Positions 3,862 through 36,726 of a stretch of 39,885 nucleotides of DNA are shown here, piece by piece. The stretch lies in the IMG/VR virus record IMGVR_UViG_3300009509_000051, positions 1 to 39,885 of that record; one strand, written 5' to 3'. Positions within the stretch are counted from its first letter, which is position 1. Each line of letters opens with the position of its first letter. Made by a program: the position numbers and the translations under genes. Source of the DNA: a virus. A model generated the notes under the pieces. It was not told where the DNA came from. It worked only from the letters and a program-made list of their open reading frames with translations, and ran no database searches.

Positions 3862-3924
3862 TGAAGAATTAGTATGATTTTTGTAAAGATTTGTTTTTTT
3901 TAGTTGACGGATTCGTTTGCGGCG

Positions 3925-3951
3925 CGTTACGTAATTAGTAACGGTTATAAT
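3925..3951 (+). promoter_or_regulatory. Palindromic operator next to a TATAAT promoter
   Basis: CGTTAC-7 bp-GTAACG (3925-3943) is a perfect interrupted palindrome lying directly upstream of a consensus -10 TATAAT (3946-3951). The string GGCGCGTTACGTA here recurs inside the following gene near 4050. A repressor bound to the palindrome would cover the promoter. Autoregulation by the winged-helix protein next to it is the simplest reading. Confidence 0.55.
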
Positions 3952-3977
3952 AATTGATCACGAACGAATATTTTTTT

Positions 3978-4490
3978 ATGAAACTTTCTGGAAAAAAAAC
4001 AGCTTTTCATGGGAGAGCGAAACAAATCATGATCAGGCTAGCTGATAACGGCGCGTTACGTACTACCCCGTTAATGAAAATGCTAGGGTTGGAGAGCACT
4101 CAGGCTATATCGGGCTATTTGAAACCGCTGCGCGAGCAAGGTTTCGTGGTTAGCGAGAAAGGTATCGGCGGCGACAAGCGTTTTGTTTATCACGAACTGA
4201 CGCGGAAAGGTCGTGAATTCCTGGACGGTTTGCGGGATGGACAAGTCAATGCCGCTCCGGAAATGAAGCTTTGGACCGCTAAGGAAATAGAACGGGAATT
4301 CGGAAAACCAGAGAAGAAACCCGATGATGAAATCGCTTATTACGAGTATCAGGAACGGAAAAACTCCGAATCGACCCGGCATGAGGAGTTGAAACGAATG
4401 GCCGATGAACTGCGTCGTAAAAACGCCGCTGACGAGAAAAAAGAGAAATTCGGAATTCAGGAAAACGAGGACGGTAGCTTGAGTTTTTGA
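3978..4490 (+). CDS. Winged-helix transcriptional regulator
   Basis: The N-terminal half has a MarR/PadR-like winged-helix pattern: a helix (GRAKQIMIRLADNGALRTTP), then LMKMLGLESTQAISGYLKPL, then a wing ending in FVYHELTRKGREFLDGL. Residues from about 100 on are highly charged and probably coiled coil. The ATG at 3978 is preferred over an upstream TTG at 3954 because the TATAAT box ends only 2 bp before that TTG. It probably controls copy number or the lysis-lysogeny choice through the palindrome upstream; the target is inferred. Confidence 0.65.
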   Translation: MKLSGKKTAFHGRAKQIMIRLADNGALRTTPLMKMLGLESTQAISGYLKPLREQGFVVSEKGIGGDKRFVYHELTRKGREFLDGLRDGQVNAAPEMKLWTAKEIEREFGKPEKKPDDEIAYYEYQERKNSESTRHEELKRMADELRRKNAADEKKEKFGIQENEDGSLSF

Positions 4491-4499
4491 GGTATTGTA

Positions 4500-4901
4500 A
4501 TGGATGAAAATTTTGAGGATTACGTAGACGCTGTTTTTGAGGTATTGAGAAAAATTATCGATTCCGATCCGATTTTGTCATTTGCGTTTAATTATACGCA
4601 GAATCACGGAATATCGCCAGATTATGCCGCGTGTCGTCATTTCGGGCTTGATCAGGAACCACTCAACCAGTCGCAAAAAAAAAACGGAGGAAACATGGAA
4701 ATCTTATTGAAGTCAGAAATAATAGCGGCCATGCGGTCTTTTGCTGAATCTTTGTCGAATAGGGAGAAACAGAAATTGCCGAGCATCAAGGCGCGTCTAG
4801 GCAAGAGCCTTCGCCTTTGTCATTCCCATAGAAGTGGAAGTGGAAGCGGGAATCCATTTTCGCGGAAGCAGATACGGGGTAACGAGAGCAATCATGGATA
4901 G
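4500..4901 (+). CDS. Hypothetical protein with repeat-derived C-terminus
   Basis: Starts 9 bp after the winged-helix gene and overlaps the W-like gene by 8 bp. The first 100 residues are acidic and helical (YVDAVFEVLRKIIDSDPILS) and resemble no family I know. The last 30 residues (from about SLRLCHSHRSGS) are translated from one of the dispersed palindromic repeats at 4819-4857, so the original stop may have been lost when the repeat inserted. It occupies the place where a lambda-like phage would carry terminase, but is far too short to be one. Confidence 0.5.
   Translation: MDENFEDYVDAVFEVLRKIIDSDPILSFAFNYTQNHGISPDYAACRHFGLDQEPLNQSQKKNGGNMEILLKSEIIAAMRSFAESLSNREKQKLPSIKARLGKSLRLCHSHRSGSGSGNPFSRKQIRGNESNHG
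4819..4857. repeat. REP-like palindrome, copy 1
   Basis: GTCATTCCC ... GCGGGAATCCAT with a partly duplicated GAAGTG loop. It is read through by the preceding gene. Confidence 0.6.
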
Positions 4902-5157
4902 CTTCACTCGACAGCTTCTACAAGATAGATTGGCTAAGGAAGTCGCCTCTTTGAACAATCTCTATGATCTTCAAGTCAAAATCGAAAACAACCCGCGCCG
5001 TTCTTATGAATTCGATTCCGGGGACGGACGGGTTGTCTCTCGTTTTTTGACGCCTGGAGAAGTAGATCAAATGATTAATACGAGACAAGCCTCAATTGAA
5101 AACATCAATCGCCGTTTATGTCGCACTAACCTTAAAGTCGTTCGCCTGGTACGTTGA
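4894..5157 (+). CDS. gpW-like head-tail joining protein
   Basis: An 87-residue protein with a helix, a short beta-hairpin (RRSYEFDSGDGRVVSRFLTP) and a second helix (EVDQMINTRQASIENINRRL). This is the layout of lambda gpW, which sits in the connector below the portal. Size and position, just before the portal gene, fit as well. The ATG at 4894 is chosen over one at 4834 because the earlier one lies inside the dispersed repeat. Its stop overlaps the next start (TGATG). The call rests on pattern and synteny. Confidence 0.55.
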   Translation: MDSFTRQLLQDRLAKEVASLNNLYDLQVKIENNPRRSYEFDSGDGRVVSRFLTPGEVDQMINTRQASIENINRRLCRTNLKVVRLVR

Positions 5158-5396
5158 TGGCTCAATCAATTGTCTACAAGGAGTGGCTTTTGTTCGGCGT
5201 TATCCCTATCTGGCGCGTCACACGTTCTTTGAGCGAAAAGGAACTAAGGGAACATGCGAAAATTATCAAAGACGAAATCTCGCAGGCTTTGCGAGACGAG
5301 ATTTTAGACAACAAAGAAAATTTTCAAAACGAAATCAAGGAAAAAGTCCTGGACGAAATAGGACGTGCACTTAGAGAACCGATACAGGTTAGATAA
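5157..5396 (+). CDS. Small helical protein between W-like gene and portal
   Basis: A 79-residue protein. After a short hydrophobic N-terminus (SIVYKEWLLFGVIPIWRV) it becomes a charged helix with repeats (ISQALRDEILDN, VLDEIGRALREPI). It is coupled to both neighbours: the start overlaps the upstream stop as TGATG and the stop overlaps the portal start as TAATG. The N-terminal hydrophobic stretch could be a membrane segment. No family recognised; a structural or assembly accessory is possible. Confidence 0.5.
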   Translation: MAQSIVYKEWLLFGVIPIWRVTRSLSEKELREHAKIIKDEISQALRDEILDNKENFQNEIKEKVLDEIGRALREPIQVR

Positions 5397-6991
5397 TGAC
5401 GGAAATTTCCCACTCGGCGCGAGCGATCGCCGCTACTATCAGAACTTCAATGTCCGCTCAGGTATCCGCCGCCGTGAGTTCGCGCTTCGATGGCGATTAT
5501 CGCAGCGGCGGAGGAAAATGGCGCGAGGGTTTGGCCGGGGATGGGCGCAGTTTTGGGATCAATCATTATCGCATGAGGCAGAATGCTAGAAACTCCTATC
5601 ACAACGATACGATAGGCAGGGCGATAATCGAGAGATACGCGGAAACAGCCGCAGGAGTGGGACTTAAATGCGAATCGTCGCCGGCTTTCGAAGTTTTGGG
5701 TATTTCTCTTGAGGAATCCGAGCGTTGGGGGCGAATAGCGGATGAACGTTTCGATCTCTGGATGTCGTCTAAAAGTTGCCATCGTTCCGAAACCATGACC
5801 GGCTATCAATCGCAGCGGCTTTACGTGATAGGACAGCAGCGGGACGGCGATAACTTCATCCGGCTTTATTATTCGGGCGATCGCGAGCTGACGAGTCCGC
5901 TGCAATTCGAGTTTCTTGATCCTGGTCAGATCGCTAGCGATGCCTACACCACGACGCGGGTTTATATGAGTCCCGATGATGGCATTGTTAGAGACGATAG
6001 AGGCCGGGAAATTGCCTATAAAGTGCGGGTTAAAATCAAAGTCTCGGAAACTCAAAGCAAATGGGAAACAAGGACTATATCCGCGAAAGGTCGCGGCTCA
6101 AATCGCCGCATGATGCTTCATGGCTACGCTCCCGAATACGCCGGCCAGGGGCGCGGGTATTCCAGGTTGGGACATGCTTTGCAGGAAATGCAGAAATTGA
6201 CGTCGTTCACGCTGGCGCAGATTATGAAGGCGATTAACCAATCGCTATTCTTTATGTTCGTCAAGCCTGGTCAGGATGCTCCGGCCAGCAATGCTCTGGA
6301 GGACTTAAGCGGTCTGAGCGGCGGAACGTTCGTTAGTCATTACGGCAGTCAGCCGAGTGCGCCGGCCGGGGCGCAAAACGTCACTGATGAAAGCCTTTCT
6401 CCCGTTAATCATTACGGAATACCTTACGGCGATGTCGGAGAACCGGGCAGCATGGCGGTTTTCAGTCTCAACCGGGGCGAAGATCTGAAAGGGTTCGTCA
6501 ACACGGCTCCCGCTGAAAGTTACGATAAATTTGTCGATTCCTTTTCGGCGTATCTAACGGCGTCAACCGGCGTGCCTCTCGAAGTTGTGCTGATGCGATT
6601 CAATAGAAACTACACGGCAGCCAGGGGCGCGTTAGTTATGTTTTGGCAAAATGCCATTATCTGGCGCAAGGAAATGATCAGCGATTACCTGAATCCGTTG
6701 CGATACGCTTGGGTATCCGAGGAAATCGCAGCTGGTAGAATATCCGCGCCGGGTTGGAACGATCCTATTTTGAAAGAAGCTTGGCTTAAGTGCAATTGGC
6801 ACGGTGCGCCGCTGCCCGATATTGACCCGGTTAAAACGGCTAATGCTAATCATATGAACGCTAAAATAGCGGCAAAAACACTTGATACTATAGCCCGCGA
6901 ACACGGCGGCGACGGCTCAAGAAATCGAGCCAAACTTAATAGAGAACTTGAAGAATTAGCGGATTGGCCATTCGATAAAAAGAAAGTTTGA
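5396..6991 (+). CDS. Portal protein, lambda gpB family
   Basis: A 531-residue protein with the marks of the lambda-type portal: an early NDTIGRAIIERYAETAAGVGL segment (first membrane-proximal helix), QFEFLDPGQIASD in the clip/stem region, and STGVPLEVVLMRFNRNYTAARGAL, the signature 'Y...R' of this family. Twelve copies would form the ring through which DNA enters the head. Its length matches the family. The start is coupled to the upstream stop. No terminase gene precedes it, unlike in lambda. Confidence 0.9.
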   Translation: MTEISHSARAIAATIRTSMSAQVSAAVSSRFDGDYRSGGGKWREGLAGDGRSFGINHYRMRQNARNSYHNDTIGRAIIERYAETAAGVGLKCESSPAFEVLGISLEESERWGRIADERFDLWMSSKSCHRSETMTGYQSQRLYVIGQQRDGDNFIRLYYSGDRELTSPLQFEFLDPGQIASDAYTTTRVYMSPDDGIVRDDRGREIAYKVRVKIKVSETQSKWETRTISAKGRGSNRRMMLHGYAPEYAGQGRGYSRLGHALQEMQKLTSFTLAQIMKAINQSLFFMFVKPGQDAPASNALEDLSGLSGGTFVSHYGSQPSAPAGAQNVTDESLSPVNHYGIPYGDVGEPGSMAVFSLNRGEDLKGFVNTAPAESYDKFVDSFSAYLTASTGVPLEVVLMRFNRNYTAARGALVMFWQNAIIWRKEMISDYLNPLRYAWVSEEIAAGRISAPGWNDPILKEAWLKCNWHGAPLPDIDPVKTANANHMNAKIAAKTLDTIAREHGGDGSRNRAKLNRELEELADWPFDKKKV

Positions 6992-6999
6992 TTACATAA

Positions 7000-7057
7000 A
7001 TCGTCGCCTCGATCAACTTGTGGCGAGCTGATGAAGTAATTTTCATGAGGCGACGAT
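7000..7057. terminator. Inverted repeat after the portal gene
   Basis: An 11-bp perfect stem, ATCGTCGCCTC (7000-7010) with GAGGCGACGAT (7047-7057), and a 36-nt loop. There is no T-run and the sequence is unlike the dispersed REP family. It separates the portal gene from the inserted fibre-like genes and may act as an RNA processing or partial termination site. Confidence 0.4.
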
Positions 7058-7073
7058 ATTCAATTAATTAGAT

Positions 7074-7421
7074 ATGACTGCTCAAAATCCTGTGATTATC
7101 CCGGAAACAACCTTGGTCGCCGATACTTGGACTAAAATAGCTGGAGGCGTTAAAACCGGCATAATATTTCCTCTCAAGGAAGGCGTCGTTTATTATCAGA
7201 CTCATCGAATAACGCCGGTCGCGCCGGAAGACGAACCTAGCGCGATATTAACGCCAGATGATCCGGAATTCGAAGGTGTAGTCATATATTACCGCCTGGA
7301 GCGAATAGCGGGAAAAAGCGTAATGCTCGATGGCGCGAGCATTATTTCGACCGTGCCTCGCGATATTTATATTTATCCTCGCGGCGGAGCTGGGCGCGTT
7401 AGATTCGATAGAGGAGAATAA
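7074..7421 (+). CDS. Hypothetical virion-associated beta protein
   Basis: A 115-residue beta-rich protein with no signal peptide or membrane segment. It contains GAGRVRFDRGE at its end and several 'I..P..T' strands. Its stop overlaps the start of the next gene (TAATG), so both are probably made together. Small beta proteins in this position in lambda-like phages often fasten to the head or neck. No family was recognised. Confidence 0.5.
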   Translation: MTAQNPVIIPETTLVADTWTKIAGGVKTGIIFPLKEGVVYYQTHRITPVAPEDEPSAILTPDDPEFEGVVIYYRLERIAGKSVMLDGASIISTVPRDIYIYPRGGAGRVRFDRGE

Positions 7422-17087: not shown

Positions 17088-18989
17088 ATGCCTGAAAATT
17101 TCATAGTCAGCACTCAATTCGTCGCAAAGGACATGATGGCGGCGTTCTGGGCGAAACAGATTCGTAGCGCGGATAAATTCGGAGACACGACTAGTCGCGA
17201 ATTCAACCGCGCTTCGAATTCCGCCAGCCGATTCGGAGACGTGCTGGGAGGAATCATCGGCGCGAATCTAATCGAGCGAGCGTTTTTTCAGGCTAAGGAA
17301 CAAATCGGCTCCTTTATTACCGAAGCCGCCAGAATCGAAAGCGCGGAAACCGCTTTCAAACGACTGGTCGGCGGCATGGAGAATGCCAAGCGAACAATTA
17401 CCGATCTTCGCATCCTGGGAGCGGAGACGCCTTTCGAGTTCCGCGATCTGGCTGAAGCCAGCACGACCTTATTAGGTTTCGAGGCGGTCACGCGACAAAC
17501 CTTGATTCCGACTCTCAGAATGCTGGGAGATTTGGCTGGAGGCAATGTCGATAAACTTAATCGTATAGTTCTGGCCTTTGGTCAAGTAGAAGCGGGCGGC
17601 AAGGCATCTATGCAGGATGTCAATCAATTCGTCAATGCCGGCATTCCAATTCTGGGAGCATTGGCTCGACAATGGGGAGTCAATGTCATGGAGGCCCGCA
17701 AGATGGTTTCCCAGGGCAAGGCCACTAGTACGGAAGTGCGAAAAGCATTCCGTGCCATGACTGCGGAAGGCGGGTTGTTTTATCGCGGCATGGCGGATGC
17801 TTCGCAAACTTTCGAGGGGCGGATGTCAACCTTGAGAGACGAGATCAACATGGCAAAACAGACCATAGGTCTGCAATTCCTGCCTATTCTCAAGGATTAT
17901 ATCATCGACTCCATAACCTTAGCTAAAACAGTCGGAGACTGGGCCGAAGCCAATCAGTTATTAATCAAAGAAGAAGTCAATAAATGGCTGGCCACGACGC
18001 GGGATATTCTTAAGGAAGTCTGGCCGATCGCCAAAACAGTTTTGGGAATCGTCAGCGATATGCTGCCCGTTATCCGCGCGATGGCTCCGATCCTGCCTGT
18101 TTTGGCGGCTGGCTGGGCGGCCAATAAAACCGTGATGATTGGCATTATGACCCTTGAGTTTGGTAAATCGCTACTAGTCATGACTGGCATAGTGAAAGGA
18201 GTTACCGCCGCGCAATGGGGGTGGAACGTGGCTATGTCCGCGAATCCAGTCGGAGCGATTATTTTGGGAGTGACCGCGTTAATCGCCGGCATAGTTTTAT
18301 TAGTCAAACACTGGGATACGGTGGAAGCCGCGATTATCAGCGGAGCCAATAAGATTTTGACGGCTTTCAAAGAAGATTTCTTTGAAACTCTGAGAATATC
18401 CACTTGGGTTTTCAGAATGATCGCCAAAGGCGCGTTTGAGTTCATCCGCCGCATGGGACAAATCTTCGGCTTCAAAACCGTGGAAAAAGAATTCGGCAAT
18501 CTGGTCAACGTCATGGACGATCTGGACGCAAAACTAAAAGAAGCCTCCGGCGTAAAACCTTGGTGGAGAGAACGCGATACGCAACAGGCGATGCAGAATC
18601 TTTTCAAAACTCAACGACTGATGGTTAAGCCTCCAACGATAACGCTTGCTCCCAGCGATTATGTCGTAGAAGATTTGCCGAAAGTTTCTCAGGCTCTAAA
18701 GCTCGACGTGCGCCGTCTGAATGTTGAAAATCTCTTTTCCCAAATGAGGGAAGCCGCGCCGCCGCGTTTTACCGGTCTGGTTCAACCTCAAGTCAATATC
18801 GCGCCTGCCGCCGCGCCGCCGGCGGAACGCGGCGGATTCGTCGCGCCCGACAGGATAGACAGGCAGGTAATAGAGCACAGAATGACGATCGATATCCCAG
18901 GAGCACCGGAAGGAACTAGAATCACCATCGGCAAAAGCAAGGCGACCGCTCCTCCGGTTTCGGTCAACCTGCTGGGCAAGGCATCATGA
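17088..18989 (+). CDS. Tape measure protein
   Basis: About 633 residues from the ATG at 17088; an earlier ATG at 17019 lies in the repeat and is not preferred. The N-terminal 230 or so residues fit the tape_meas_nterm domain: GAETPFEFRDLAEASTTLLG and QDVNQFVNAGIPILGALARQ are its characteristic segments. A hydrophobic stretch around ANPVGAIILGVTALIAGIVL could cross the host membrane on DNA entry. The C-terminus is Pro/Ala-rich. Its length sets tail length; 633 residues suggests a tail near 90-100 nm by the usual 1.5 angstrom per residue rule. Confidence 0.88.
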   Translation: MPENFIVSTQFVAKDMMAAFWAKQIRSADKFGDTTSREFNRASNSASRFGDVLGGIIGANLIERAFFQAKEQIGSFITEAARIESAETAFKRLVGGMENAKRTITDLRILGAETPFEFRDLAEASTTLLGFEAVTRQTLIPTLRMLGDLAGGNVDKLNRIVLAFGQVEAGGKASMQDVNQFVNAGIPILGALARQWGVNVMEARKMVSQGKATSTEVRKAFRAMTAEGGLFYRGMADASQTFEGRMSTLRDEINMAKQTIGLQFLPILKDYIIDSITLAKTVGDWAEANQLLIKEEVNKWLATTRDILKEVWPIAKTVLGIVSDMLPVIRAMAPILPVLAAGWAANKTVMIGIMTLEFGKSLLVMTGIVKGVTAAQWGWNVAMSANPVGAIILGVTALIAGIVLLVKHWDTVEAAIISGANKILTAFKEDFFETLRISTWVFRMIAKGAFEFIRRMGQIFGFKTVEKEFGNLVNVMDDLDAKLKEASGVKPWWRERDTQQAMQNLFKTQRLMVKPPTITLAPSDYVVEDLPKVSQALKLDVRRLNVENLFSQMREAAPPRFTGLVQPQVNIAPAAAPPAERGGFVAPDRIDRQVIEHRMTIDIPGAPEGTRITIGKSKATAPPVSVNLLGKAS

Positions 18990-20248
18990 CTTGGCAACAG
19001 CGCGTAAGGGATACGATAGAATTCGTTTCACCTCAAAAAAAATCGTTTTTCGCCTACTGGGAAGAGGTAACGGAATCTTTAGCGCACACCCTGGGAATAT
19101 TCAAATATCCAAAAATCAAGGGTATCGTTATCCAAGACCTGGACGATAGCGGATTTCTGCATAATTTTTCATTCTCGTTTCATGGCGAAAACCACGACCA
19201 GCAGGCGCGGGCGTTCTTCCAAGCCTGTCGGGAAACTGGAACATGGGAGATCACGCACCCGAATAACGGAAAGCTGAATCTTCAGCTTTCCGAAATAACG
19301 AAAAGATACAGGCCGAATCAGGATGCGAACGCGACCTATTTCGACAGCTCCTGGCTTGAGCCGGCTCCAGCGGAACAAATCATCAGCGTCGAGGAAAATA
19401 TTGAAAACCTGCGTGCGCAATCTACTATCGTCAATGAGACGGCGGCGGGACAATTCGAGAGATTCACGGATTTAAGCACAGCCAGTCTGCGAAACTCCAC
19501 CGTGGTGGCTAGTAGATCGCTGCTTGAGAGAATCCAAAGCGCATTGGCCAGTCTCTACGAGCTTAACGCTACCCTGAACGGCTATATAAATTCGGTCGTC
19601 AGAGCCGTCAACAACGCTCTGAACCAGGCTGAAATATTCACGGCAACCTTGGCTAATCAGTTTCAGCAATTAATCCAGTTGCCGCTGCTGGTCACCAACA
19701 ATATAACGAATCGCCTTGATTCCCTAACGAACTTGGCGGACTCGATTTTCGATCTGACGCCGATCAACTCTTTCGCGGAAAGTCGCAATACGGCTTCAGT
19801 CATGGATATGGGCATAACAGCAGTTTTGACGGCGGCGGGCCTGAGCGTCATAGACGCCAACCTGGAAACCAGAAAGGACGCGCTTGACGCGGCCGCGGTG
19901 ATTTCCGACTTATTCACGGAAAATACCGAACGTCTTGACCAGCTTCAAAAACTGTTCATTGACCAGGACGCCAGAAGGCAATATTTCAGTCAGTCGGAAT
20001 CTTTCCCGGATACCACGGTTTTGATTCTGAGAGCGATCGATATAATCATTCAACAGTCATTCAACCTGAAAATCGAGAAAAAATTCACGCTGGACTTTCC
20101 CAGAGTTCCGCTTGAGATCGCCATGACCGAATACGGCGGACCGGGGGAGAACGACGCCAACATTGATTTTTTCATTCAAAGCAACGCTCTATCCGGCAAT
20201 GAGATTATTCTATTGCCGGCTGGAAGGAAGGTAATAGTTTATGTCTAA
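18986..20248 (+). CDS. DNA circulation / tail protein, Mu gpN (gp43)-like
   Basis: A 420-residue protein overlapping the tape-measure stop by 4 bp. The first 100 residues (SFSFHGENHDQQARAFFQAC, then GTWEITHPNNGKLNLQLSEI) are the DNA_circ_N domain of Mu gp43, where 'G..l..P..G.l.v' is typical. The long middle part is helical and the end returns to a beta pattern. Such proteins link tape measure and baseplate hub. In Mu the hub gene follows at once, whereas here the Csf cassette intervenes. Confidence 0.8.
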   Translation: MTWQQRVRDTIEFVSPQKKSFFAYWEEVTESLAHTLGIFKYPKIKGIVIQDLDDSGFLHNFSFSFHGENHDQQARAFFQACRETGTWEITHPNNGKLNLQLSEITKRYRPNQDANATYFDSSWLEPAPAEQIISVEENIENLRAQSTIVNETAAGQFERFTDLSTASLRNSTVVASRSLLERIQSALASLYELNATLNGYINSVVRAVNNALNQAEIFTATLANQFQQLIQLPLLVTNNITNRLDSLTNLADSIFDLTPINSFAESRNTASVMDMGITAVLTAAGLSVIDANLETRKDALDAAAVISDLFTENTERLDQLQKLFIDQDARRQYFSQSESFPDTTVLILRAIDIIIQQSFNLKIEKKFTLDFPRVPLEIAMTEYGGPGENDANIDFFIQSNALSGNEIILLPAGRKVIVYV

Positions 20249-20606
20249 AAATTGCTTATTAGATTTAGTTGATAGCGAAATTAGACCGGATTTCATAAAA
20301 CACAGCGTCAGAACCGCGAAACAACCGCATCAATGCTGCGAATGCGGCATGGCTATTGCCGCGCTTGAGCAATATGAATATACGGCAGGCGCATGGGATG
20401 GAGATTTCAGAACCTTCAAAACCTGTCTGCCCTGCGTCGAAATTCGCGACGAGTTGTTTTGTTCCTTCATCTTCACGGAAATATACTCGAGTCTAGAAAA
20501 TGAGGCTTTTGAAGTGAACATGGCCGCGCTGGAAAGATTCAGCCCGACGGCGCAGCGGAAATTGATTGAAAACTTGGTTTTGCCCTGGCTGGATAAGGAG
20601 GACTAA
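20241..20606 (+). CDS. Small zinc-binding phage protein
   Basis: A 121-residue protein overlapping the tail gene by 8 bp. Two Cys pairs, C32-C35 (with an extra C33) and C62-C65, frame EQYEYTAGAWDGDFRTFKTC. This pattern is seen in many prophage proteins of unknown role. It is the first gene after the tail-gene junction and may belong to the inserted segment. A strong AAGGAGGA at its 3' end supplies the ribosome site for the Csf2-like gene. Confidence 0.6.
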   Translation: MSKNCLLDLVDSEIRPDFIKHSVRTAKQPHQCCECGMAIAALEQYEYTAGAWDGDFRTFKTCLPCVEIRDELFCSFIFTEIYSSLENEAFEVNMAALERFSPTAQRKLIENLVLPWLDKED

Positions 20607-20615: not shown

Positions 20616-21914
20616 ATGATTAAATTATCGTATAAAGCAGAGGCGTTACAGCCGATTTTTACAGGCAGCGATGAAGACGCCGGAATCACGAAAACATTAA
20701 GACGCGAAAAAGTTTCCTTTTCCGATCCGATCATTCATCAATCATGGTTTAAATCGGAAAATTCAAGACGACAAGCCGCGCTGTTGATTCTTGAAGAGAT
20801 TTGGAAAAAAATAGATTTCACGGATATGGGCGGCAATCGCCGCATGCGAATCTGGGATGAGTTTTCTTCTAAAATGCTGGCCGCGACAAGGGTCAGAAAT
20901 CGGTTTCAATTCCTGAATGAATTGACCAGGGCGTTCAATATCAGATCATTGAATAATCCCTTGATTTCGGAATTAATCCAACGTTTTTCAGATGACGAAT
21001 TCTTGACTTTGCTTCGAGACGAGCAACAATTTCTGATTCTGCTTTTAAGATCGAAACGTCAGGAAATTCAGGAAAAGAAAAAAGCGCAGGATGAATACGA
21101 TTCCACTAGCCCTTTCGATATTATCGATGATGAATCAAATGAATCTGTCGCTGATCTTGAAAAAAAAGGTTTCGGGTTGAAGAAATTCGGAAGAGATATG
21201 GAAAGCAAGGATGCTCCTCTGATCTATGCTAAAACTTTCGATAGAATCCCGTATATATCAGGTAACTCCATTAGGGGTTTGCTACGTAGACTTGTTATGC
21301 GCGATTTCTGCGAAAGAACCGGCATAAAGCAATTGAAAAAGGATATGTATCACCAGCTTTTCACCGGTGGGAATATTACGGATTCGACGATTTACGAAAA
21401 TATAGAACAACGTGAACGCTATGTCGCGATGTGTCCTCCAATAGGTCTTTTCGGTTCGGCTATCGGCAATATGACGATCGAAGGAGAATTGAAAGTGGGA
21501 GCTATGCGACCTTGTTGTTCCGAACATAAAACAGGAGGAGTATCTTTTTGGGAGTTGCTTGGCGTGGAATTCGGAACTCGCAGGGATGATTCCAAGCTGG
21601 AGCGCGACATAAAGATAATCGCGGAAAATTCGGAAAAGGATAAGCCGCAACAAATGAAATACGATTATGAAGTGTTCGTGAAAGGAACCATATTCAATCA
21701 TCAATTCATATGTACCACATATGATCCGCTTATCGAATCGGCATTTTGGCATGCTATGCGGATGTTCAAGGCAAATCCTTTCATCGGAGGAAATTCAGCT
21801 ATCGGCAATGGAGAAATAGAATTGAATTTTTCGGTTGAAGAAACTAAAGGCCAAAAATATCTTCAATATCTAGATGATCGAAAGTCCGAAATTCAGGAAT
21901 ATTTCGCTGGATAA
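20616..21914 (+). CDS. csf2: Cas7-family RAMP protein, Csf2-like (type IV backbone)
   Basis: In type IV complexes Csf2 polymerises along the guide RNA. Here the N-terminal strand (KLSYKAEALQPIFTGS) opens a RAMP ferredoxin fold. IPYISGNSIRGLLRRLV at 211-227 is the hallmark 'iP.iSGNSiRG.lR' seen in Csf2 and other Cas7 proteins. MCPPIGLFGSAIGN (272-285) and FIGGNSAIGNGEIEL (389-403) are the later Gly-rich segments. A charged helical insertion (about 50-190) makes it 432 residues, against about 350 usual for the family. The stop overlaps the next start (ATAATGG). Base composition is richer in A+T than the flanking tail genes. Confidence 0.82.
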   Translation: MIKLSYKAEALQPIFTGSDEDAGITKTLRREKVSFSDPIIHQSWFKSENSRRQAALLILEEIWKKIDFTDMGGNRRMRIWDEFSSKMLAATRVRNRFQFLNELTRAFNIRSLNNPLISELIQRFSDDEFLTLLRDEQQFLILLLRSKRQEIQEKKKAQDEYDSTSPFDIIDDESNESVADLEKKGFGLKKFGRDMESKDAPLIYAKTFDRIPYISGNSIRGLLRRLVMRDFCERTGIKQLKKDMYHQLFTGGNITDSTIYENIEQRERYVAMCPPIGLFGSAIGNMTIEGELKVGAMRPCCSEHKTGGVSFWELLGVEFGTRRDDSKLERDIKIIAENSEKDKPQQMKYDYEVFVKGTIFNHQFICTTYDPLIESAFWHAMRMFKANPFIGGNSAIGNGEIELNFSVEETKGQKYLQYLDDRKSEIQEYFAG

Positions 21915-22573
21915 TGGAATTCGTTTATCCTATTCCGGCGTGGATGAGAGGAAAAATTCTTGATAGGAAAAGACTATACGCTTTTCCCAATATCCCAGAG
22001 GAAAAACCTTTCATTCTCGATAGCGGAGCCTTTGGTTTGTTTAAATCGGGAAAACGCATGAATAATGCTTATTTCGAACGCTTATATAAGCATTATTCAT
22101 TATATGAAGGTTGGAAAGTCGCTCCTGATGTTTTTCTCGATCCTCGCGTCAGCATGAATAATTTTCGGTTATGGATGAAAAAATATGCTGATTGCCGAAT
22201 ATGCCCAGTCGTTCAATTTGCTAAAAAGAAAAAAATAGATCAGGTTTTAACTGAATATCAAATAGAATTCTATCTTAATTCAATAAATGAACTGCCGATC
22301 ATTTTCATTTCCAATCCAGGTTTGATCGCGGAAGCCTGGCCGCATGATTTTTTTCTTAAACTGAAAAACAAATATAATCTTAATTGGATACATTTGCTTG
22401 GAGCGGGCTGGAATATGAATGACATAAGAATTTACGCGACGCTCAAGGGATTGGATAGCATAGACAGCATTGTTTATTATCAAGATGATTTTTTCAATAT
22501 TAAAGGAACGAAGACGGAAATAGCCCTTAATAATCAACGTAAAATAGATGAATTGCTTTCAAATAACTTTTGA
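21914..22573 (+). CDS. TGT/DpdA-like TIM-barrel enzyme in the csf cassette
   Basis: A 219-residue protein resembling the tRNA-guanine transglycosylase superfamily, which swaps guanine for 7-deazaguanines in tRNA or, in DpdA, in DNA. FILDSGAFGLF (33-43) carries the Asp-Ser-Gly motif of the active site. APDVFLD (70-76), CPVVQF (97-102), HLLGAGWN (160-167) and SIDSIVYYQD (182-191) follow the barrel strands; Asp184 is the probable nucleophile. It lacks the C-terminal Cys3-His zinc site of tRNA TGTs and is much shorter, like single-domain phage versions. It sits between csf2 and csf3 with overlaps on both sides. Activity and substrate are inferred. Confidence 0.68.
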   Translation: MEFVYPIPAWMRGKILDRKRLYAFPNIPEEKPFILDSGAFGLFKSGKRMNNAYFERLYKHYSLYEGWKVAPDVFLDPRVSMNNFRLWMKKYADCRICPVVQFAKKKKIDQVLTEYQIEFYLNSINELPIIFISNPGLIAEAWPHDFFLKLKNKYNLNWIHLLGAGWNMNDIRIYATLKGLDSIDSIVYYQDDFFNIKGTKTEIALNNQRKIDELLSNNF

Positions 22574-23210
22574 AATGTCTTCTCCCATTTGCTTCATCGA
22601 TAGACCGATTTTCGACGCGATGATAGTTTATTGCTGGATGAAGGAGAAATACGGCAATATACCTGTCAAACTCGAATTATCGAATGAACAATTATCATCG
22701 TTTCCTGATTTGCCAATCGAATATCATGAAGACGGATACCCGCTTTCCTCGGTAATGACGTTCATGGGCAGTCTTGAATATACTGGAAGTTGGAAAAAAC
22801 GATGGGATAATCGAAACGACGTTTTGGCGGACTTCAATAAAAGTCAACGTAAAATCAATGTCGGTAAAGGAGCTTTCAAGTCGTACGATATGCCGTTGCC
22901 ATTATATCACATCGAGAATGTTGCGTTTTATTTCGTCGGAGATGCGGACCGTATCGAATATCTAATCAAACGTCACCTTCCAGGAATCGGCAAAAAAATA
23001 AGCCAGGGTTACGGCTTTTTCAAATCCTTTAAAATAAAGCCGGCGCAACGACGTTTATTTGACGATTTTTTATTGCGCCCAATTCCAGTCGCATCCGCGA
23101 TGCATTATGAATATTCAGATACCAATAATTACGAAATTAGATTTTGCGGCTACAGACCATCTTATTATTTACCGGAGAATCAAGCTAAATGCATTTATCC
23201 AGTTTTATAA
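22548..23210 (+). CDS. csf3: Cas5-family RAMP protein, Csf3-like
   Basis: Csf3 caps the 5' end of the guide in type IV complexes. Residues 1-16 (MNCFQITFEMSSPICF) form the first RAMP strand, so the ATG at 22548 is preferred over one at 22575 even though it overlaps the upstream gene by 26 bp. VGKGAFKSYDMPLPLYHIEN (105-124) resembles the conserved 'G.fK.y..p' region. GIGKKISQGYGFFKSFKI (146-163) is the Cas5 Gly-rich loop. GYRPSYYLPENQAKCIYPV (201-219) matches the typical Csf3 ending. Length 220 is normal. No catalytic His for Cas5d-like cleavage is evident. Confidence 0.78.
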   Translation: MNCFQITFEMSSPICFIDRPIFDAMIVYCWMKEKYGNIPVKLELSNEQLSSFPDLPIEYHEDGYPLSSVMTFMGSLEYTGSWKKRWDNRNDVLADFNKSQRKINVGKGAFKSYDMPLPLYHIENVAFYFVGDADRIEYLIKRHLPGIGKKISQGYGFFKSFKIKPAQRRLFDDFLLRPIPVASAMHYEYSDTNNYEIRFCGYRPSYYLPENQAKCIYPVL

Positions 23211-23989
23211 CTAAGCATATTAAATTCGAATATCCGGTTGAAGGTCGGGAAACGGTCTGTAAAATGTGCGGTCTTGGAATAACGCAGGGAGTTCATCAGA
23301 AAAACATAATTAAAAAAGCGACCTTCAATGATTACCAATATCTGAAATACGATTCCGATTTTCTATGTCAGCCTTGCGCCGCGTTGATTAGCGATATAAG
23401 GTTCGCGGATGACGTGAAAGACCAGAAACGCAGATTAAGAAGTTTTTCCTTTCTCGCGACTGAAAACGGGTTTAAAGTCTTGAAACGCGAAGATATTTGG
23501 GAAACGATATTCACGCCGCCCGCTGGTCCATTCGTTTTTTGCGTCACATATAGCAATAAAAAACATATAGCTTTCAAAACGCGGATTCAATGCGATAGTC
23601 AAAATTACGTGGTCTATACTGACAAAGGAGAAGTGCTGTTGGAACTTGCGAAAATAACAGAACTCGCGAGAATAATTTCATGCTGGTATAAAATATTGCC
23701 AGGAAAACAAAATATAAAACAGCAACCGACGTTTTTCACGAAATCGGAAATATTGCATGGCGGATACAACTTCAGAAATATATCTGAATACGGCATCGAA
23801 CGATATAATATCGAAAATAGATTTCTGGAAAAGTATAGAAATACGACTCTTTTAACGCTGTTGGTATTCGCTCTCAATAAAACTATTGATTCCAATATCG
23901 TCGCGAATACGATGCCGAATTCGGATATCGACGAAAATGATAATAATGTTGTTATTAAAGAAGATAAAGATGGAATTTTAAGTTTTTAA
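23189..23989 (+). CDS. csf1: Csf1-like zinc-finger protein (type IV Cas8-like subunit)
   Basis: Two CxxC pairs (C24-C27 and C60-C63) form the N-terminal zinc finger of Csf1. The segment FTPPAGPFVFCVTYSNKKHI (108-127) matches the conserved 'PP..PF.......KH' block of the family. The remainder is helical, and its last 20 residues are acidic. Csf1 acts as the large-subunit equivalent. It overlaps csf3 by 22 bp and ends 6 bp before the baseplate hub gene, so the cassette sits in the late tail transcript. Length 266 is within the family range. Confidence 0.76.
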   Translation: MHLSSFITKHIKFEYPVEGRETVCKMCGLGITQGVHQKNIIKKATFNDYQYLKYDSDFLCQPCAALISDIRFADDVKDQKRRLRSFSFLATENGFKVLKREDIWETIFTPPAGPFVFCVTYSNKKHIAFKTRIQCDSQNYVVYTDKGEVLLELAKITELARIISCWYKILPGKQNIKQQPTFFTKSEILHGGYNFRNISEYGIERYNIENRFLEKYRNTTLLTLLVFALNKTIDSNIVANTMPNSDIDENDNNVVIKEDKDGILSF

Positions 23990-23995
23990 TCAAAT

Positions 23996-25279
23996 ATGAT
24001 ACCGAAACCAGGAACAATCTACACAGTCCAACAAGGCGACACGCTCAACGATATAGCCGCTCGCGCCTACGGCAGTCCGGCGGAGCGAACCCGCATCATA
24101 GAGGCTAACGGCATAGCGGACCCGAATAAAATAATCGTCGGACAAGTGCTGGTGATTCCCGTAGTTCCGGAGCTGGCCGCGCTGCAAAGGCGATTCAGTA
24201 TTCGGGATGAAGGTTTCAGACTCAAGCTCGGCGGCAGAATCCTGCCCGTAATGGCCGGGAGAGTACTCAGAACCATGGACACTCCCGCGGACGGTTGGTC
24301 GGCGATCATAGCTTGGGAGCCTGGACAAGACGCGCAGCTAGACGCGCTCACGGAACCGGGAGCGTTTCCGGAAGCTTCCGTATACCTCGATGGAAATCTC
24401 ATGGTGCAGGGGCGGCTCTACAATGTCAAATCCTCGTCCGGCAATGAGGGCCGCATCCTGGAACTGGAAGGATTTTCAAAAACCGTCGATATCGTGGACT
24501 CGCACCTGTTTCCGCCGTATCAATATCAAGACCTGACATTGGTCGGTTTCTGCGTCGAATTATTCAAAATAACCGGTATCGGCATAATCATAGATGAAGG
24601 GTTGAACGTGGATATTGGAGGAGTCTTCAAAGAAGAGAAAATCAGTCCTACAGAAACGATCTCCGGCTTTCTGCAAAAATTGGCCGATCGCAAGAGCGCA
24701 ATGCTTTCCTCCACCCGCGAAGGCGATCTCCTCATTACCAGGGCCAACACGCGAAAGCCGGTGATCGGAACCATCGAAGAAGGAGTAAGCCCGGTTTCAA
24801 AGTGGGAATTGGATTTCAAAGGCCGTCAATTATTCAGAACCTACAGGGGCGTTTTGCAGAAACAGGCCATGCCTGAAGGTAAAACTATAATAGCCGTCGA
24901 TAAAACAGTAACTTTTCAACGCATCAAAACCTTCATGGTTACTAAAGGCGATGAAAAGGACTTGGAAGCCGCCGTGCGCTGGGAAAGAAATAAGACCCTT
25001 GCCGAAGCCATGACCTTTTCCTTGCCGATAGATACGTGGTATGCTCCGGATGGTCGTTTATGGACTGAAAACAGCAGCGTTCTGGTAAAATCTTCCACCA
25101 TGAGAGTGCCGAACGGGTTTACCTTCATAATCCGGAGAGTGGAATTCATCTGGGGAGAAAACGGCAAGACAGCCGTTCTGGATTTGACGCCGCCGAGTCT
25201 TTACACTAAACAAGACCCGGTTCTCCCCTGGGCGGAAAAAAGTTTTGAAATACGCTACGAGGATTTAAAATCAACTTAG
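23996..25279 (+). CDS. Baseplate hub protein, Mu gpP (gp44)-like with LysM
   Basis: Residues 8-56 are a LysM domain (YTVQQGDTLNDIAARAYGSP, then IIVGQVLVIPV) that binds peptidoglycan or helps assembly. The rest fits the Mu gp44/late-control-D hub: DGWSAIIAWEPGQD, LMVQGRLYNVKSSSGNEGRI and LVGFCVELFKITGIGIII. It trimers at the centre of the baseplate. Mu gp44 has no LysM, so this is a fused or expanded form like P2-type X-D combinations. Confidence 0.82.
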   Translation: MIPKPGTIYTVQQGDTLNDIAARAYGSPAERTRIIEANGIADPNKIIVGQVLVIPVVPELAALQRRFSIRDEGFRLKLGGRILPVMAGRVLRTMDTPADGWSAIIAWEPGQDAQLDALTEPGAFPEASVYLDGNLMVQGRLYNVKSSSGNEGRILELEGFSKTVDIVDSHLFPPYQYQDLTLVGFCVELFKITGIGIIIDEGLNVDIGGVFKEEKISPTETISGFLQKLADRKSAMLSSTREGDLLITRANTRKPVIGTIEEGVSPVSKWELDFKGRQLFRTYRGVLQKQAMPEGKTIIAVDKTVTFQRIKTFMVTKGDEKDLEAAVRWERNKTLAEAMTFSLPIDTWYAPDGRLWTENSSVLVKSSTMRVPNGFTFIIRRVEFIWGENGKTAVLDLTPPSLYTKQDPVLPWAEKSFEIRYEDLKST

Positions 25280-31391: not shown

Positions 31392-31856
31392 ATGAGCAAC
31401 GGATTAACAATTTTAGGCGGCATCAAAAATTCCGGCATTCAACCGCGGAATGGAGAACAAAGCTTTTTTTGGCAAATGGAAGAGCTTGAAAACGCCTTCC
31501 ATTTTTCAATGCCGGCGCAACCGGAAGTAGAATCGCTATTCATTGAATTCGACGAATTGACCGCAGCCGGAACAGCCTACAAAGAACGCGGTCCGCTTAA
31601 CATGCTCGATTTGCTGTTGTCCCTGGAAACTCTCGCGCCTGGCTTTCAGGGTATAATTCTCAATCATCAGGCGCGATTGCTCAGACAACGTTTATCTCGA
31701 TCCTCCGGACTATCTCTTGAAATAGCCGGAAAGACGATTATTTTTCAAAAAGAGGAAACTCTTAAAACGGTTAATTTTCTGGATTTTTTCAACGATTTTT
31801 TGAAACCAAGAATAGACGGAGGTCTAAATGGAAAAGACGTTATTGAAACGCCTTAA
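31392..31856 (+). CDS. Hypothetical protein paired with the pseudo-patatin
   Basis: A 154-residue cytoplasmic-type protein, no signal or membrane segment. It has a Leu-rich helical middle (LNMLDLLLSLETLAPGFQGI) and a beta end (LSLEIAGKTIIFQKEETLKT). It overlaps the pseudo-patatin gene by 29 bp, so the pair is probably translated together and may form a complex. No family recognised. Confidence 0.5.
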   Translation: MSNGLTILGGIKNSGIQPRNGEQSFFWQMEELENAFHFSMPAQPEVESLFIEFDELTAAGTAYKERGPLNMLDLLLSLETLAPGFQGIILNHQARLLRQRLSRSSGLSLEIAGKTIIFQKEETLKTVNFLDFFNDFLKPRIDGGLNGKDVIETP

Positions 31857-33144
31857 ACGGCAAGTACCGGATTTCGGCTATCTGGAAATCCATTTGCCGG
31901 AAGCCGCCGGCAAAAAATTGACGGAACTGGCGGCTGAAACGCCGGACGGAACACGACATAAACTTTGGAAGAATGGCCGCAAAGACTACATTAATCTAAC
32001 GTTTCGAGGTCAACGTCCTCAAAATACCGTCGAGATAGATTTTTTTCTTCTGAATACCGAAGGCCCGCCGCAGATCAAGCCCGTAAATCAAATCCCAGTG
32101 GCCAAGGCGACGCCTCCACCTGAAAAACCGAAAAAAAAACGGAAGATGCCGTTTTTCAGCGGACTTCAAGAAAAACAGGCCGAGCGAGCCGCCTTGAATC
32201 TAGCCGAGATAAAATCCATCCGCGAAACAGATTTATCCTGCCCGAATCTTTCAAACCAGAATGTGTTGACTTTCGATGCCGCGTATTGCTGGGCGCGAGC
32301 CTGGGGCATGATCCAGAAGGCGCAGCAGCTTCAATTTCAACTCGGAAAACCTCTCTATAAATGCTATGACCGGATTTGCGGACAAGGAGACGGAGCCATT
32401 ATCGCCGCCGCGATCGCCGCCGGAATCAGTTTCGACCGTTTAGGCGCATGGTGGAGCAATGAGTGGCGCAAGGTTCACAATCCTAATCTGCTGAAAGCTA
32501 GTCAACGCTGGCTGGTCTCTAAGGTCAAACCGTCTCAAAGTGGCTACGACGCGAAACAGGCCCGTAAAGCTCTGCGGATTCTGTTTCAGAAAAACGGCGC
32601 GGACATGCGCATGAAGGACGTGCAGACCGAATTGCAAATCATGGTGATTCAGGCCGATCTTAAAGTTACGTTTCATTACAGCCCGGAAAACCCGGATATA
32701 GAACTATGGACCGTGGTCGAAGACTCGGCAGTTACCAAAATGCACTATAATCAAAAGGAAACCATCAGCGGCGGAGCTATTTTTCTCGGAGCGATCGAAA
32801 AGAACGATGCCCTGGGGCTGGCGTTATCCTCCGGAAACACCAACCTTAGCATTTTATCAATCGGTACTCCGGTGAGAGTCAATCCGCAGACGGCTAAGAA
32901 ATTCTCCAAACTTGGCCATGCCGGAGATAAAATCAATCTTCAGAATGGCGGTTTCTTTTTGCATGAAAAGAGAACGGAACAACTAGTCGAAAAACTGAAC
33001 GGAGCAGGGTATCAAATCGTTTATCGACGGCTTGAATGCGCTCCGATGGACGGCATAGTCTGCAACGATACCAGCGATTTCGCCAAGAGCGTCGGCATTG
33101 AAAGCGGATCCGGGCAAATCATCAACACGGGAGCAGCATCATGA
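31828..33144 (+). CDS. Degenerate patatin-like protein (pseudoenzyme)
   Basis: A 438-residue protein. Residues 175-204 follow patatin-like phospholipases: 'plyk.yD.i.GxSxG' appears as LYKCYDRICGQGDGAIIAAA, so the nucleophile Ser is Gly187. The second catalytic motif DGG is SGG at 314-316 (ISGGAIFLGAIEKNDALGLA), followed by ILSIGTP (342-348), which matches 'vlSlGTG'. Both catalytic residues of the dyad are thus absent while the scaffold persists. The first 150 residues are a separate basic domain with a Pro/Lys linker. Binding rather than lipid cleavage is likely. Confidence 0.62.
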   Translation: MEKTLLKRLKRQVPDFGYLEIHLPEAAGKKLTELAAETPDGTRHKLWKNGRKDYINLTFRGQRPQNTVEIDFFLLNTEGPPQIKPVNQIPVAKATPPPEKPKKKRKMPFFSGLQEKQAERAALNLAEIKSIRETDLSCPNLSNQNVLTFDAAYCWARAWGMIQKAQQLQFQLGKPLYKCYDRICGQGDGAIIAAAIAAGISFDRLGAWWSNEWRKVHNPNLLKASQRWLVSKVKPSQSGYDAKQARKALRILFQKNGADMRMKDVQTELQIMVIQADLKVTFHYSPENPDIELWTVVEDSAVTKMHYNQKETISGGAIFLGAIEKNDALGLALSSGNTNLSILSIGTPVRVNPQTAKKFSKLGHAGDKINLQNGGFFLHEKRTEQLVEKLNGAGYQIVYRRLECAPMDGIVCNDTSDFAKSVGIESGSGQIINTGAAS

Positions 33145-35718: not shown

Positions 35719-36087
35719 ATGATTGGAGATATAGCACAAGCTTTAGCGACCTATTACGGATATAAAACGCTTGGGGGGCTGTTGTCCGCCAACTCAGGCT
35801 TGATCGTAGTTTTGGCGGCGTTGATATGCGTAACGCTAGTGTTTCTGAAGATATTAAGTCGTCAATATCCAGGCGGCAACCCGCCGCCGTTCCGACAACG
35901 TTTGATCAAAACCACCGTGATTTTCTTCATCTGCGCTTTTATATTCATCTGCGGATTCACGGTGTTTTATGAGAGAAAAAAGACGGTCGAAAAAGCGTCT
36001 CTTATCATTCCCGCGCAGGCAGGAGTTCATTTATGGGTTAACCTCGAAAAAAGCTTTGGCGAAACCTGGCGGCGTAGTGCTTCTTAA
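35719..36087 (+). CDS. Small two-span membrane protein with repeat-derived tail
   Basis: A 122-residue protein with a good ribosome site (AAGAGGTG) before the ATG at 35719. Two membrane segments: SGLIVVLAALICVTLVFLKI and TTVIFFICAFIFICGFTVFY. The last 30 residues (from SLIIPAQAGVHLWV) are translated from a REP-like copy at 36005-36030 and then from the antisense of the methyltransferase end. Its original stop may have been replaced. Perhaps a holin-like protein. Confidence 0.5.
   Translation: MIGDIAQALATYYGYKTLGGLLSANSGLIVVLAALICVTLVFLKILSRQYPGGNPPPFRQRLIKTTVIFFICAFIFICGFTVFYERKKTVEKASLIIPAQAGVHLWVNLEKSFGETWRRSAS
36005..36030. repeat. REP-like palindrome, copy 12 (inside coding end)
   Basis: TCATTCCCGCGCAGGCAGGA then GTTCAT, read in frame as SLIIPAQAGVHL by the upstream gene. 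It lies at the junction of the rightward and leftward transcripts. Confidence 0.6.
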
Positions 36088-36726
36088 CATTTGCCTATCT
36101 TTACCAAGTTTATACTCGCGTTCTTTCCAATATCGATCAATTGAATGATGTCCACGCTTTGTCTCAGGTAATTCTATCCTATCAGGCTTTGGAATATTGA
36201 ACTTACCCCAAAGGCATGTTTTTTTCGTGTATGGATCTCCATAATCGCAAGGATCGAATATCCATTGCGGATCACCTATATAATGCTTCAATCGTCCAAC
36301 TGGATTTTCAAAAACCCACCATTCCGGATCACAGAATAAAACAAGCCTGGCGCAAGCATCGAAAACGCTTAAGCCTTCTAATAAAGTCGATTCTCCTTTT
36401 TTTCTCCACGATGCCGCGCCGCTGCTGGCAAAATGCGTACAAGGCGGAGCGGCCAATATTCCGTGAACTTTCCCTTGATGTTTTAAAAGTCTGACATCTT
36501 GACCATGCTGAATATCGATACGGTGTACTTTATAACCGGCGTCCGCATAAGGTTGAGACCAATTGCTGCTATAATCGCATAAAGATAAAATTATATCGTT
36601 TTTAGTCGTTAATTTCGAGTTACGAATAAAACGATGATAATAGACGCGGCAAGTAGTCGAGCAAAAAAGTTGATCCGAGCGTTTCACTTTGAATTTTTTT
36701 TGGCATCTAAGGCATCTTTTTTTCAT
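36031..36726 (-). CDS. C5 cytosine DNA methyltransferase with N-terminal zinc ribbon
   Basis: A 231-residue phage-type enzyme. The catalytic PPC is at 94-96 (LAAPPCTHFASSGAASW) and the ENP motif at 130-132 (FENPVGRL). RSTTPPGFAKAF near the end matches motif X of Dcm-like enzymes. The first 26 residues carry C5-C8 and C22-C26, a small zinc finger. It probably marks phage or plasmid DNA against host restriction; the target sequence is unknown. The gene overlaps the preceding one by 20 bp and converges on the late genes. Confidence 0.78.
   Translation of the reverse strand: MKKRCLRCQKKFKVKRSDQLFCSTTCRVYYHRFIRNSKLTTKNDIILSLCDYSSNWSQPYADAGYKVHRIDIQHGQDVRLLKHQGKVHGILAAPPCTHFASSGAASWRKKGESTLLEGLSVFDACARLVLFCDPEWWVFENPVGRLKHYIGDPQWIFDPCDYGDPYTKKTCLWGKFNIPKPDRIELPETKRGHHSIDRYWKEREYKLGKDRQMLRSTTPPGFAKAFFEVNP

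Follow-up and report, generated by a model that had tools for sequence, protein, structure and literature searches.

A type IV-B-like csf cassette in a phage-plasmid tail operon carries a predicted transglycosylase-fold protein in the place of CysH

The window, by which we mean the whole stretch of 39,885 nucleotides of viral DNA analysed in this work, contains a type IV Csf core with homologues of Csf1, Csf2 and Csf3 together (PADLOC E-values from 1.2e-27 to 1.5e-49), in a cassette of four genes. These are csf2 (Cas7-like, 432 aa, 20616..21914; PADLOC Csf2_0_IV, 1.5e-49), a gene for a 219-aa accessory protein (21914..22573), csf3 (Cas5-like, 220 aa, 22548..23210; PADLOC Csf3_0_IV, 4.7e-38; NCBIfam cas5_csf3, 5.1e-17, under cut-off) and csf1 (Cas8-like large subunit with two CxxC pairs, 266 aa, 23189..23989; PADLOC Csf1_0_IV, 1.2e-27; NCBIfam cas8u_csf1, 2.2e-15, under cut-off). 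All four genes are open, lie on the + strand and overlap or almost touch, as an earlier sequence-only reading of this DNA had described for the csf genes. That reading had placed the three csf genes where the PADLOC models find them, but its gene list missed the fourth one at 21914-22573. The NCBIfam models for csf1, csf2 and csf3 were matched with scores under their curated cut-offs, which indicates that the Csf proteins of this cassette are divergent members; since the profile search returned type IV Csf models for all three proteins, the alternative that they belong to different RAMP families and lack Csf support does not hold. The type IV-B small subunit Cas11 is also present, as an insertion within Csf2 after approximately residue 44: its first 35 residues correspond in alignment to the start of ordinary Csf2, residues 45-190 align with stand-alone Cas11, and residues 52-162 match the type IV Cas11 model (PADLOC Cas11_1_IV, 3.5e-17). 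The hallmarks of type IV-A are missing, with no array, no Cas6 and no match to DinG among the scanned ORFs, the last in a search without a DinG-specific model.

The cassette is flanked by genes for a Mu gp43-like baseplate hub (18986..20248, + strand; phrog_184, 5.6e-22) and a Mu gp44-like baseplate hub (23996..25279, + strand; phrog_177, 1.8e-47), in agreement with the position first proposed for it. In two phage contigs (L010 and L011) whose proteins are 43-75% identical to those of the window along the aligned tail module (66% for the gp43-like and 63% for the gp44-like hub), the two hub genes directly adjoin with no cassette between them, and therefore the block is an insert. The four genes have GC contents of 0.41, 0.35, 0.39 and 0.37, whereas 21 other genes of the phage have 0.478 +/- 0.034 (z from -2.0 to -3.7), so the A+T richness noted by eye is borne out. 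Relative to the two cassette-free contigs, the insert also takes in a small CxxC-containing ORF (20241..20606, + strand; phrog_7314, 8.9e-11, function unknown) of normal GC (z -0.4), a relative of which sits upstream of csf1 in another locus (L037); whether this ORF is a member of the cassette is uncertain. Promoter and terminator signals in the cassette block did not exceed chance expectation, which fits its placement in the tail operon. The window also encodes a Rep_3 replication protein and has iteron-like repeats at 1834-2175; together with the type IV profiles and the empty site in both relatives, this upholds the view that a type IV-like cassette has entered the tail operon of a phage-plasmid. 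Decay of an insertion that no longer has a function would be in line with the finding of just one such window in this phage group and of two relatives lacking the cassette, but we consider it very improbable, as the four genes are open and overlapping and the accessory protein keeps the invariant residues described below.

The accessory protein was modelled with AF2 from a 12-sequence input (pLDDT 91.8, pTM 0.89). The 50 best PDB matches listed by VIA-align were all tRNA-guanine transglycosylases (TGT, ArcTGT) or the DNA preQ0 insertase DpdA, with Z values of 15.5-16.5; the best match was 1iq8 (Z 16.5), the DpdA structure 7ui4 reached Z 15.6, and the best superposition covered 208 of the 219 residues at 3.0 A. 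Residues D36, D72, Q101, G163 and D184 are invariant in all 12 TGT-like sequences, and D36, D72, Q101 and D184 stand on or just past the ends of strands 3, 4, 5 and 8 of the predicted model. In the TGT of Z. mobilis, we take their equivalents to be the catalytic pair D102 and D280 (for D36 and D184) and the base-recognition residues D156 and Q203 (for D72 and Q101), a correspondence based on motif and strand order rather than on residue-level superposition. The sequence likeness to known TGTs is very weak. The PHROG queuine tRNA-ribosyltransferase family gave weak matches, the best within the TGT-like family being 4.6e-5; hhalign of the family against DpdA gave a probability of 9%, and its alignments to bacterial TGT and phage 9g DpdA extended little, if at all, beyond the DSGxF motif; and searches of PDB sequences with TGT-like profiles returned no relatives. 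In comparison with tRNA TGTs, with which it shares the predicted TIM-barrel and the positions of the catalytic and base-recognition residues, the cassette protein is short (approximately 220 residues), is encoded in a csf cassette, has no match to PF01702 in the window's record or in nine other TGT-type records, and has no conserved Cys column across the 12 sequences. Since the zinc site of tRNA TGTs is made up of three Cys and one His, a Cys-based zinc subdomain is lacking. Thus, it is well supported by the predicted structure and the invariant residues that this previously unreported gene product adopts a TGT/DpdA fold with TGT active-site residues. An earlier model from three sequences was poor and matched assorted TIM barrels in the PDB; the 12-sequence model was used in its place.

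Twelve distinct TGT-type loci were found. When the TGT-like protein alone was used as query, all 11 of the loci found were csf cassettes, in which its gene mostly overlaps csf genes, and a further TGT-type csf locus (L019) is present in a Massilibacteroides MAG. CysH has been described as strictly conserved in type IV-B (PMC8175902), and the PAPS-reductase family to which it belongs (PF01507) was matched in 7 of 7 CysH-type records but neither in the record of the window nor in any of the 12 TGT-type viral records. The exchange can be followed in two matched pairs. Between L022 (TGT) and L021 (CysH), csf2 and csf3 are 91% and 89% identical in DNA while the stretch between them differs; between L019 (TGT) and L027 (CysH), the stretch csf1-cas11-csf2 is 70% alike as far as the stop codon of csf2, and csf3 is 67% alike. 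In both pairs the change is located exactly at the accessory gene. On the Csf2 tree the exchange of CysH and TGT takes about seven changes and a single TGT clade is rejected (p-AU 1e-54), and the Csf3 tree concurs (7 changes, p 2e-35). The TGT-like protein therefore alternates exclusively with CysH in the same slot of the cassette, and its role as a dedicated partner tied to csf cassettes is well supported. Outside these loci, relatives were scarce: with the window's protein as query (E <= 10), GenBank phages gave a single weak match (0.08) within an antirestriction protein, and that of L055 found nothing in the same phages; plasmids searched with that of L059 gave nothing; and 398 genomes from the phylum of L014 contained no TGT-like relative, in a search run without a positive control. 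These near-empty searches suggest a rare subfamily rather than a common phage gene.

The distribution bears on whether the gene could be an ordinary DpdA-like DNA-modification gene lying next to csf genes by chance. DpdA is a phage enzyme of the same fold, the cassette protein shares its LDSGAF motif, and phages are described as protecting their DNA with DpdA (PMC6884629). Nevertheless, the cassette protein is shorter than DpdA, shows no recognisable full-length sequence similarity to it and lacks the base-synthesis gene QueC beside it; all relatives found are in csf cassettes, and the gene alternates with CysH, so that a chance neighbourhood seems hardly credible.

Among known systems the closest is type IV-B, for example the complex of Mycobacterium sp. 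JS623, with homologous Csf1, Csf2, Csf3 and Cas11 (PMC7937560). As in type IV-B, the cassette is borne on a mobile element and no CRISPR array was found; it differs in the insertion of Cas11 in Csf2, in the gene order csf2-TGT-csf3-csf1 and in the predicted TGT-fold protein in the place of cysH. Type IV-B effector genes encoded by viruses, as here, are known in Fuxiviridae, where, unlike in the window, they are accompanied by CysH and a mini-array (PMC10848311). We found no identical arrangement in the literature searched, although an earlier mention in the type IV surveys (PMC8658065, PMC7038947) is possible. Our reading is of a variant of type IV-B whose Csf ribonucleoprotein acts together with a 7-deazaguanine transglycosylase.

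As to catalysis, the base used, the nucleic-acid substrate, the source of guides, targeting and the biological effect, we infer the following scheme. Csf2, including the Cas11 domain it contains, would assemble with Csf3 and Csf1 into a filament on a small RNA, as is known for type IV-B, and the TGT-like enzyme would cooperate with this filament. Using the putative aspartate pair D36 and D184, the enzyme would replace guanine with a 7-deazaguanine base (preQ0, preQ1 or queuine), either in the nucleic acid held by the filament or in one paired with it. Being small and having no Cys zinc site like that of tRNA TGTs, the enzyme probably relies on the Csf complex for presentation of its substrate. 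Csf2 of type IV-B flips out one base per six nucleotides (PMC7937560), and this base is a candidate site of exchange. Modification would serve to mark or inactivate the nucleic acid rather than to cut it, and the benefit to the phage would most likely be counter-defence or self-marking late in infection. We hold it somewhat probable that the cassette encodes a Csf ribonucleoprotein of type IV-B-like make-up, with a small TGT/DpdA-superfamily transglycosylase instead of CysH, and that this enzyme modifies nucleic acid at the filament.

How the site would be chosen is a separate matter. The window contains neither a CRISPR array nor array-like repeats, and no array was found in those parts of nine further TGT-type records that were searched, so there is no spacer to reveal a target; moreover, Cas6 is absent from the window's record and present in just one TGT-type locus, and sequence guidance may thus not exist. 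Nor do the data lend specific weight to the earlier suggestion that the cassette may act on rival elements. One type IV-B complex formed on RNAs of non-CRISPR origin and showed no evident specificity for them (PMC7937560). These data also suit a Csf complex that acts as a sponge for host crRNAs, a hypothesis reviewed previously (PMC8175902), with the TGT modifying or inactivating the captured RNA without target recognition. Such a sponge does not alone explain why CysH stands in for the TGT; it is a special case of the nucleic-acid-modifying ribonucleoprotein favoured above and not distinguishable from it here, so that the confidence placed in the two overlaps, and we regard it as rather less than likely. 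Only slightly more readily, and still tentatively, we entertain that the CRISPR-derived ribonucleoprotein directs the exchange of guanine for 7-deazaguanine at sites chosen by the bound RNA, with CysH doing related nucleic-acid chemistry. Were guidance real, the cassette would represent RNA-guided nucleobase replacement in nature, and programmable base replacement of a new kind.

Modification of nucleic acids does not follow from a TGT fold alone. In type IV CBASS, a TGT-like protein (Cap10) has likewise been recruited to a conflict system with 7-deazaguanine chemistry, where it binds the modified, deazaguanylated N-terminus of a protein and partners the QueC-like Cap9 (PMC11996544). Type IV CBASS loci encode Cap10 together with Cap9/QueC and a CD-NTase. 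The cassette protein may, like Cap10, modify or bind a protein, the Csf complex itself being the modified or regulated partner. The use of a TGT-family protein in protein conjugation by CBASS speaks for this, and so do the membership of IV-B CysH and Cap9 in related PP-loop families and the weak match of T. nautili CysH to QueC. On the other hand, QueC or a QueC-like partner is absent from all 12 TGT-type records, including that of the window, where the partner is a predicted RNA-binding Cas7 filament; no PADLOC CBASS model matches the TGT-like family; and the transglycosylase aspartates are invariant, as expected of an enzyme acting on nucleosides. Cap10 is outside VIA-align and the libraries used, so its missing from the match lists says nothing. 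Modification or binding of a protein is thus unlikely in our view.

If nucleic-acid modification is the activity, the result would matter for type IV-B at large. CysH, which has so far counted as the hallmark accessory of type IV-B, proves replaceable by a TGT-like enzyme, and the answer to the role of type IV-B has been thought probably to lie in this conserved and unexplained protein (PMC8175902, PMC7937560). The replacement of CysH in near-identical cassettes by an enzyme family with a well-understood reaction points to nucleic-acid modification as the shared output and gives it a defined assay. The cassette thereby suggests that type IV-B relatives chemically tag nucleic acids instead of cutting them and, if this is true, interchangeability implies that ordinary type IV-B CysH performs a related modification.

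The 7-deazaguanine base would be drawn from the host pool; some relatives could instead import it by way of a transporter that their cassette encodes. In the window's record neither QPTR/YhhQ nor QueT was found and, QueC being absent as well, the base would need a host source. No preQ1 riboswitch was detected near the cassettes, nor any tRNA with a Q-type anticodon, the only tRNA there being a tRNA-Leu(TAG) in L053. QPTR/YhhQ and QueT are the sole known families of Q-precursor transporters (PMC11130926), and none was found in the CysH-type viral records tested. Among the TGT-type loci, L055 and L056 carry a Vut_1 protein (2.5e-38) that also scores over the cut-off of the NCBIfam equivalog 'queuosine precursor transporter' (QPTR/YhhQ), while L060 has QueT (1.4e-27); in each the transporter gene is located between csf1 and cas11. 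The linkage is limited to two independent lineages; a transporter for the likely base in these cassettes is the same pointer to nucleic-acid modification as the replacement of CysH.

The Mu gp43-like gene and the gp44-like gene enclose five plus-strand ORFs, four of which constitute the cassette: csf2 (20616-21914), a gene for a TGT-like protein of 219 aa that overlaps both of its neighbors (21914-22573), csf3 (22548-23210) and csf1 (23189-23989). The sequence-only reading had described a type IV-like Csf2-Csf3-Csf1 cassette, and PADLOC profile searches confirmed these three identities (Csf2, 1.5e-49; Csf3, 4.7e-38; Csf1, 1.2e-27), but the fourth gene had been overlooked. The names were also confirmed by NCBIfam, with scores under the curated cut-offs, and the Csf proteins of the window are therefore divergent members. 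Neighboring cassette genes all abut or overlap, and the four are richer in A+T than 21 other phage genes (z -2.0 to -3.7), as that reading had stated; the small ORF outside the cassette (20241-20606) shows no such enrichment in the same comparison. Csf2 contains a type IV Cas11 domain (3.5e-17): in alignments its first 35 residues match the ordinary Csf2 N-terminus, residues 45-190 match the stand-alone Cas11 of relatives, and the remainder matches the Cas7 body. A comparably long Csf2 is also found in the related loci L012, L013 and L032-L037.

The 219-aa protein had no match in Pfam, NCBIfam or PDB sequences, and in PHROGs it matched queuine tRNA-ribosyltransferase weakly, the best value for any family member being 4.6e-5. 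An AlphaFold2 model built from an alignment of 12 family members was confident (pLDDT 91.8, pTM 0.89), and its best VIA-align match was the archaeosine TGT 1iq8 (Z 16.5, 208 residues, 3.0 A), with Z. mobilis TGT at Z about 16 and the DNA preQ0 insertase DpdA (7ui4) at Z 15.6; among the matches listed, 50 of 50 entries belong to the TGT/DpdA superfamily. D36, D72, Q101, G163 and D184 are invariant in all 12 members, within the motifs DSGAF, APD, VQ, LGAGW and DSIAYY, and we take D36, D72, Q101 and D184 to correspond to D102, D156, Q203 and D280 of TGT, matched by strand order and motif rather than by residue-level superposition. The invariant aspartates favor a real transglycosylase. No cysteine is conserved across the family, which therefore lacks the Cys zinc site present in tRNA TGTs.

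Related loci were gathered from genomes and viruses by Csf2 alignment. Most bacterial loci have the order csf1-cas11-csf2-cysH-csf3, and cysH follows csf3 in archaeal and some other loci; L022, L031 and L035 instead have a gene related to the window TGT in the cysH place, between csf2 and csf3. Used by itself as the query, the TGT family found 11 loci (L022, L031, L035, L053, L054, L055, L056, L057, L059, L060 and L061), all 11 inside csf cassettes. With the window, the additional locus L019 (a Massilibacteroides MAG contig) and L056 counted together with L055, of which it is a near copy, there are 12 distinct TGT-type loci, copies of the same contig being entered once; all but one come from uncultured viruses and many records are fragments. 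The PAPS reductase family, to which CysH belongs, was found in none of 12 TGT-type viral records (L056 included, L019 left out) and in 7/7 CysH-type records.

Judged from these cassettes, CysH and TGT replace each other in the same slot, which two locus pairs show directly. L021 and L022 share 91% DNA identity in csf2 and 89% in csf3, and between the shared parts the CysH-type L021 carries cysH and an N-terminal Csf3 extension where L022 carries TGT; this extension (~156 residues; L021 6434-7642) resembles an HD phosphohydrolase domain and is missing from the near-identical TGT-type cassette. L019 and L027 share 70% DNA identity along csf1-cas11-csf2 as far as the csf2 stop and 67% in csf3, and in between L027 has cysH and L019 has TGT plus one gene of unknown family. 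The Csf2 tree of 44 loci requires seven changes between CysH and TGT, each of them imposed by well-supported branches, and the Csf3 tree likewise requires seven, four of them so imposed, these being changes of state without direction. A single TGT clade was rejected on both trees (Csf2, p-AU 1e-54; Csf3, p 2e-35).

According to PMC8175902, CysH is ubiquitous or strictly conserved among type IV-B systems. Since type IV-B proper carries CysH and the window cassette does not, we do not class the latter as IV-B proper; no earlier report tying TGT or queuine to type IV was found in the literature searched, two main type IV surveys lying outside it, and we therefore call the cassette a new variant of type IV-B.

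The best hint of a substrate comes from companion genes. The gene between csf1 and cas11 in L055/L056 is a Vut_1 member (2.5e-38), above cut-off for the NCBIfam equivalog "queuosine precursor transporter", and the gene in that position in L060 is QueT (1.4e-27); one paper names these as the only two families known to transport queuosine precursors (PMC11130926). Neither was present in the CysH-type viral records tested, the one other QueT found lies in the bacterial genome of L014, far from its cassette, and the window's own record contains neither family and no QueC. The two transporter families are unrelated to each other yet share this position beside the same enzyme, which would point to a queuosine precursor. 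In type IV-B, Csf2 and Cas11 assemble along small RNA into a filament that flips out one base per six nucleotides (PMC7937560). The simplest reading is that the TGT would swap guanine for a 7-deazaguanine base in the filament-bound RNA or in the strand paired to it. Alternatively, it may modify a protein, as in type IV CBASS (PMC11996544), or disable guide RNAs captured by the Csf complex, as hypothesized in PMC8175902; the transporters are compatible with base exchange and with both alternatives alike.

Other genes accompany these loci. DUF3440, a second PAPS-reductase-like family, and a ParB-like gene stand beside the CysH-type loci L003, L014 (with DUF3440 between cysH and csf3), L016, L026, L036 and L041 and, by annotation, L004 and L006; the pair was seen in no TGT-type locus. 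Similar genes of 306-314 aa and unassigned family adjoin the TGT gene inside the cassettes of L019 (9674-10618) and L053 (5075-5995). In L061, csf3 and the TGT gene are separated by a weakly methyltransferase-like gene (4575-5381; best match tRNA guanine-26 dimethyltransferase, 1.2e-5, far under cut-off). L059, with no CRISPR array in 20 kb, is the only TGT-type record with a Cas6 gene above cut-off (6639-7286, after the TGT gene; Pfam 1.1e-13).

The cassette is an insert in the tail module. In the IMG/VR contigs L010 and L011, whose genes match this module one by one (mostly 43-75% protein identity), the gp43-like gene is followed directly by the gp44-like gene; the cassette and the small ORF are missing, which supports the earlier claim of a cassette placed inside the tail operon. 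A relative of the small ORF is found at 943-1341 of L037, upstream of a CysH-type cassette rearranged to csf1-csf3-cysH-csf2 (3871-7215). No promoter or terminator for the cassette rose above chance level, and it is therefore likely to be expressed with the late genes. The element combines portal, capsid and tail genes with a Rep_3 protein and its iteron-like repeats, which fits a phage-plasmid, in line with the view of the element as both. The GCTACAAAAATCCGC-type repeats immediately upstream of the Rep_3 gene (1834-2175) are probably plasmid-origin iterons. A palindromic repeat, TCATTCCCGCG...CGGGAATC, is scattered between phage genes (10741-10769, 27138-27166, 31292-31320 and 35999-36027), and the window also holds a patatin-like phospholipase match slightly under cut-off (31828-33144, 2.1e-5) and a weak C5-cytosine methylase match (36034-36726).
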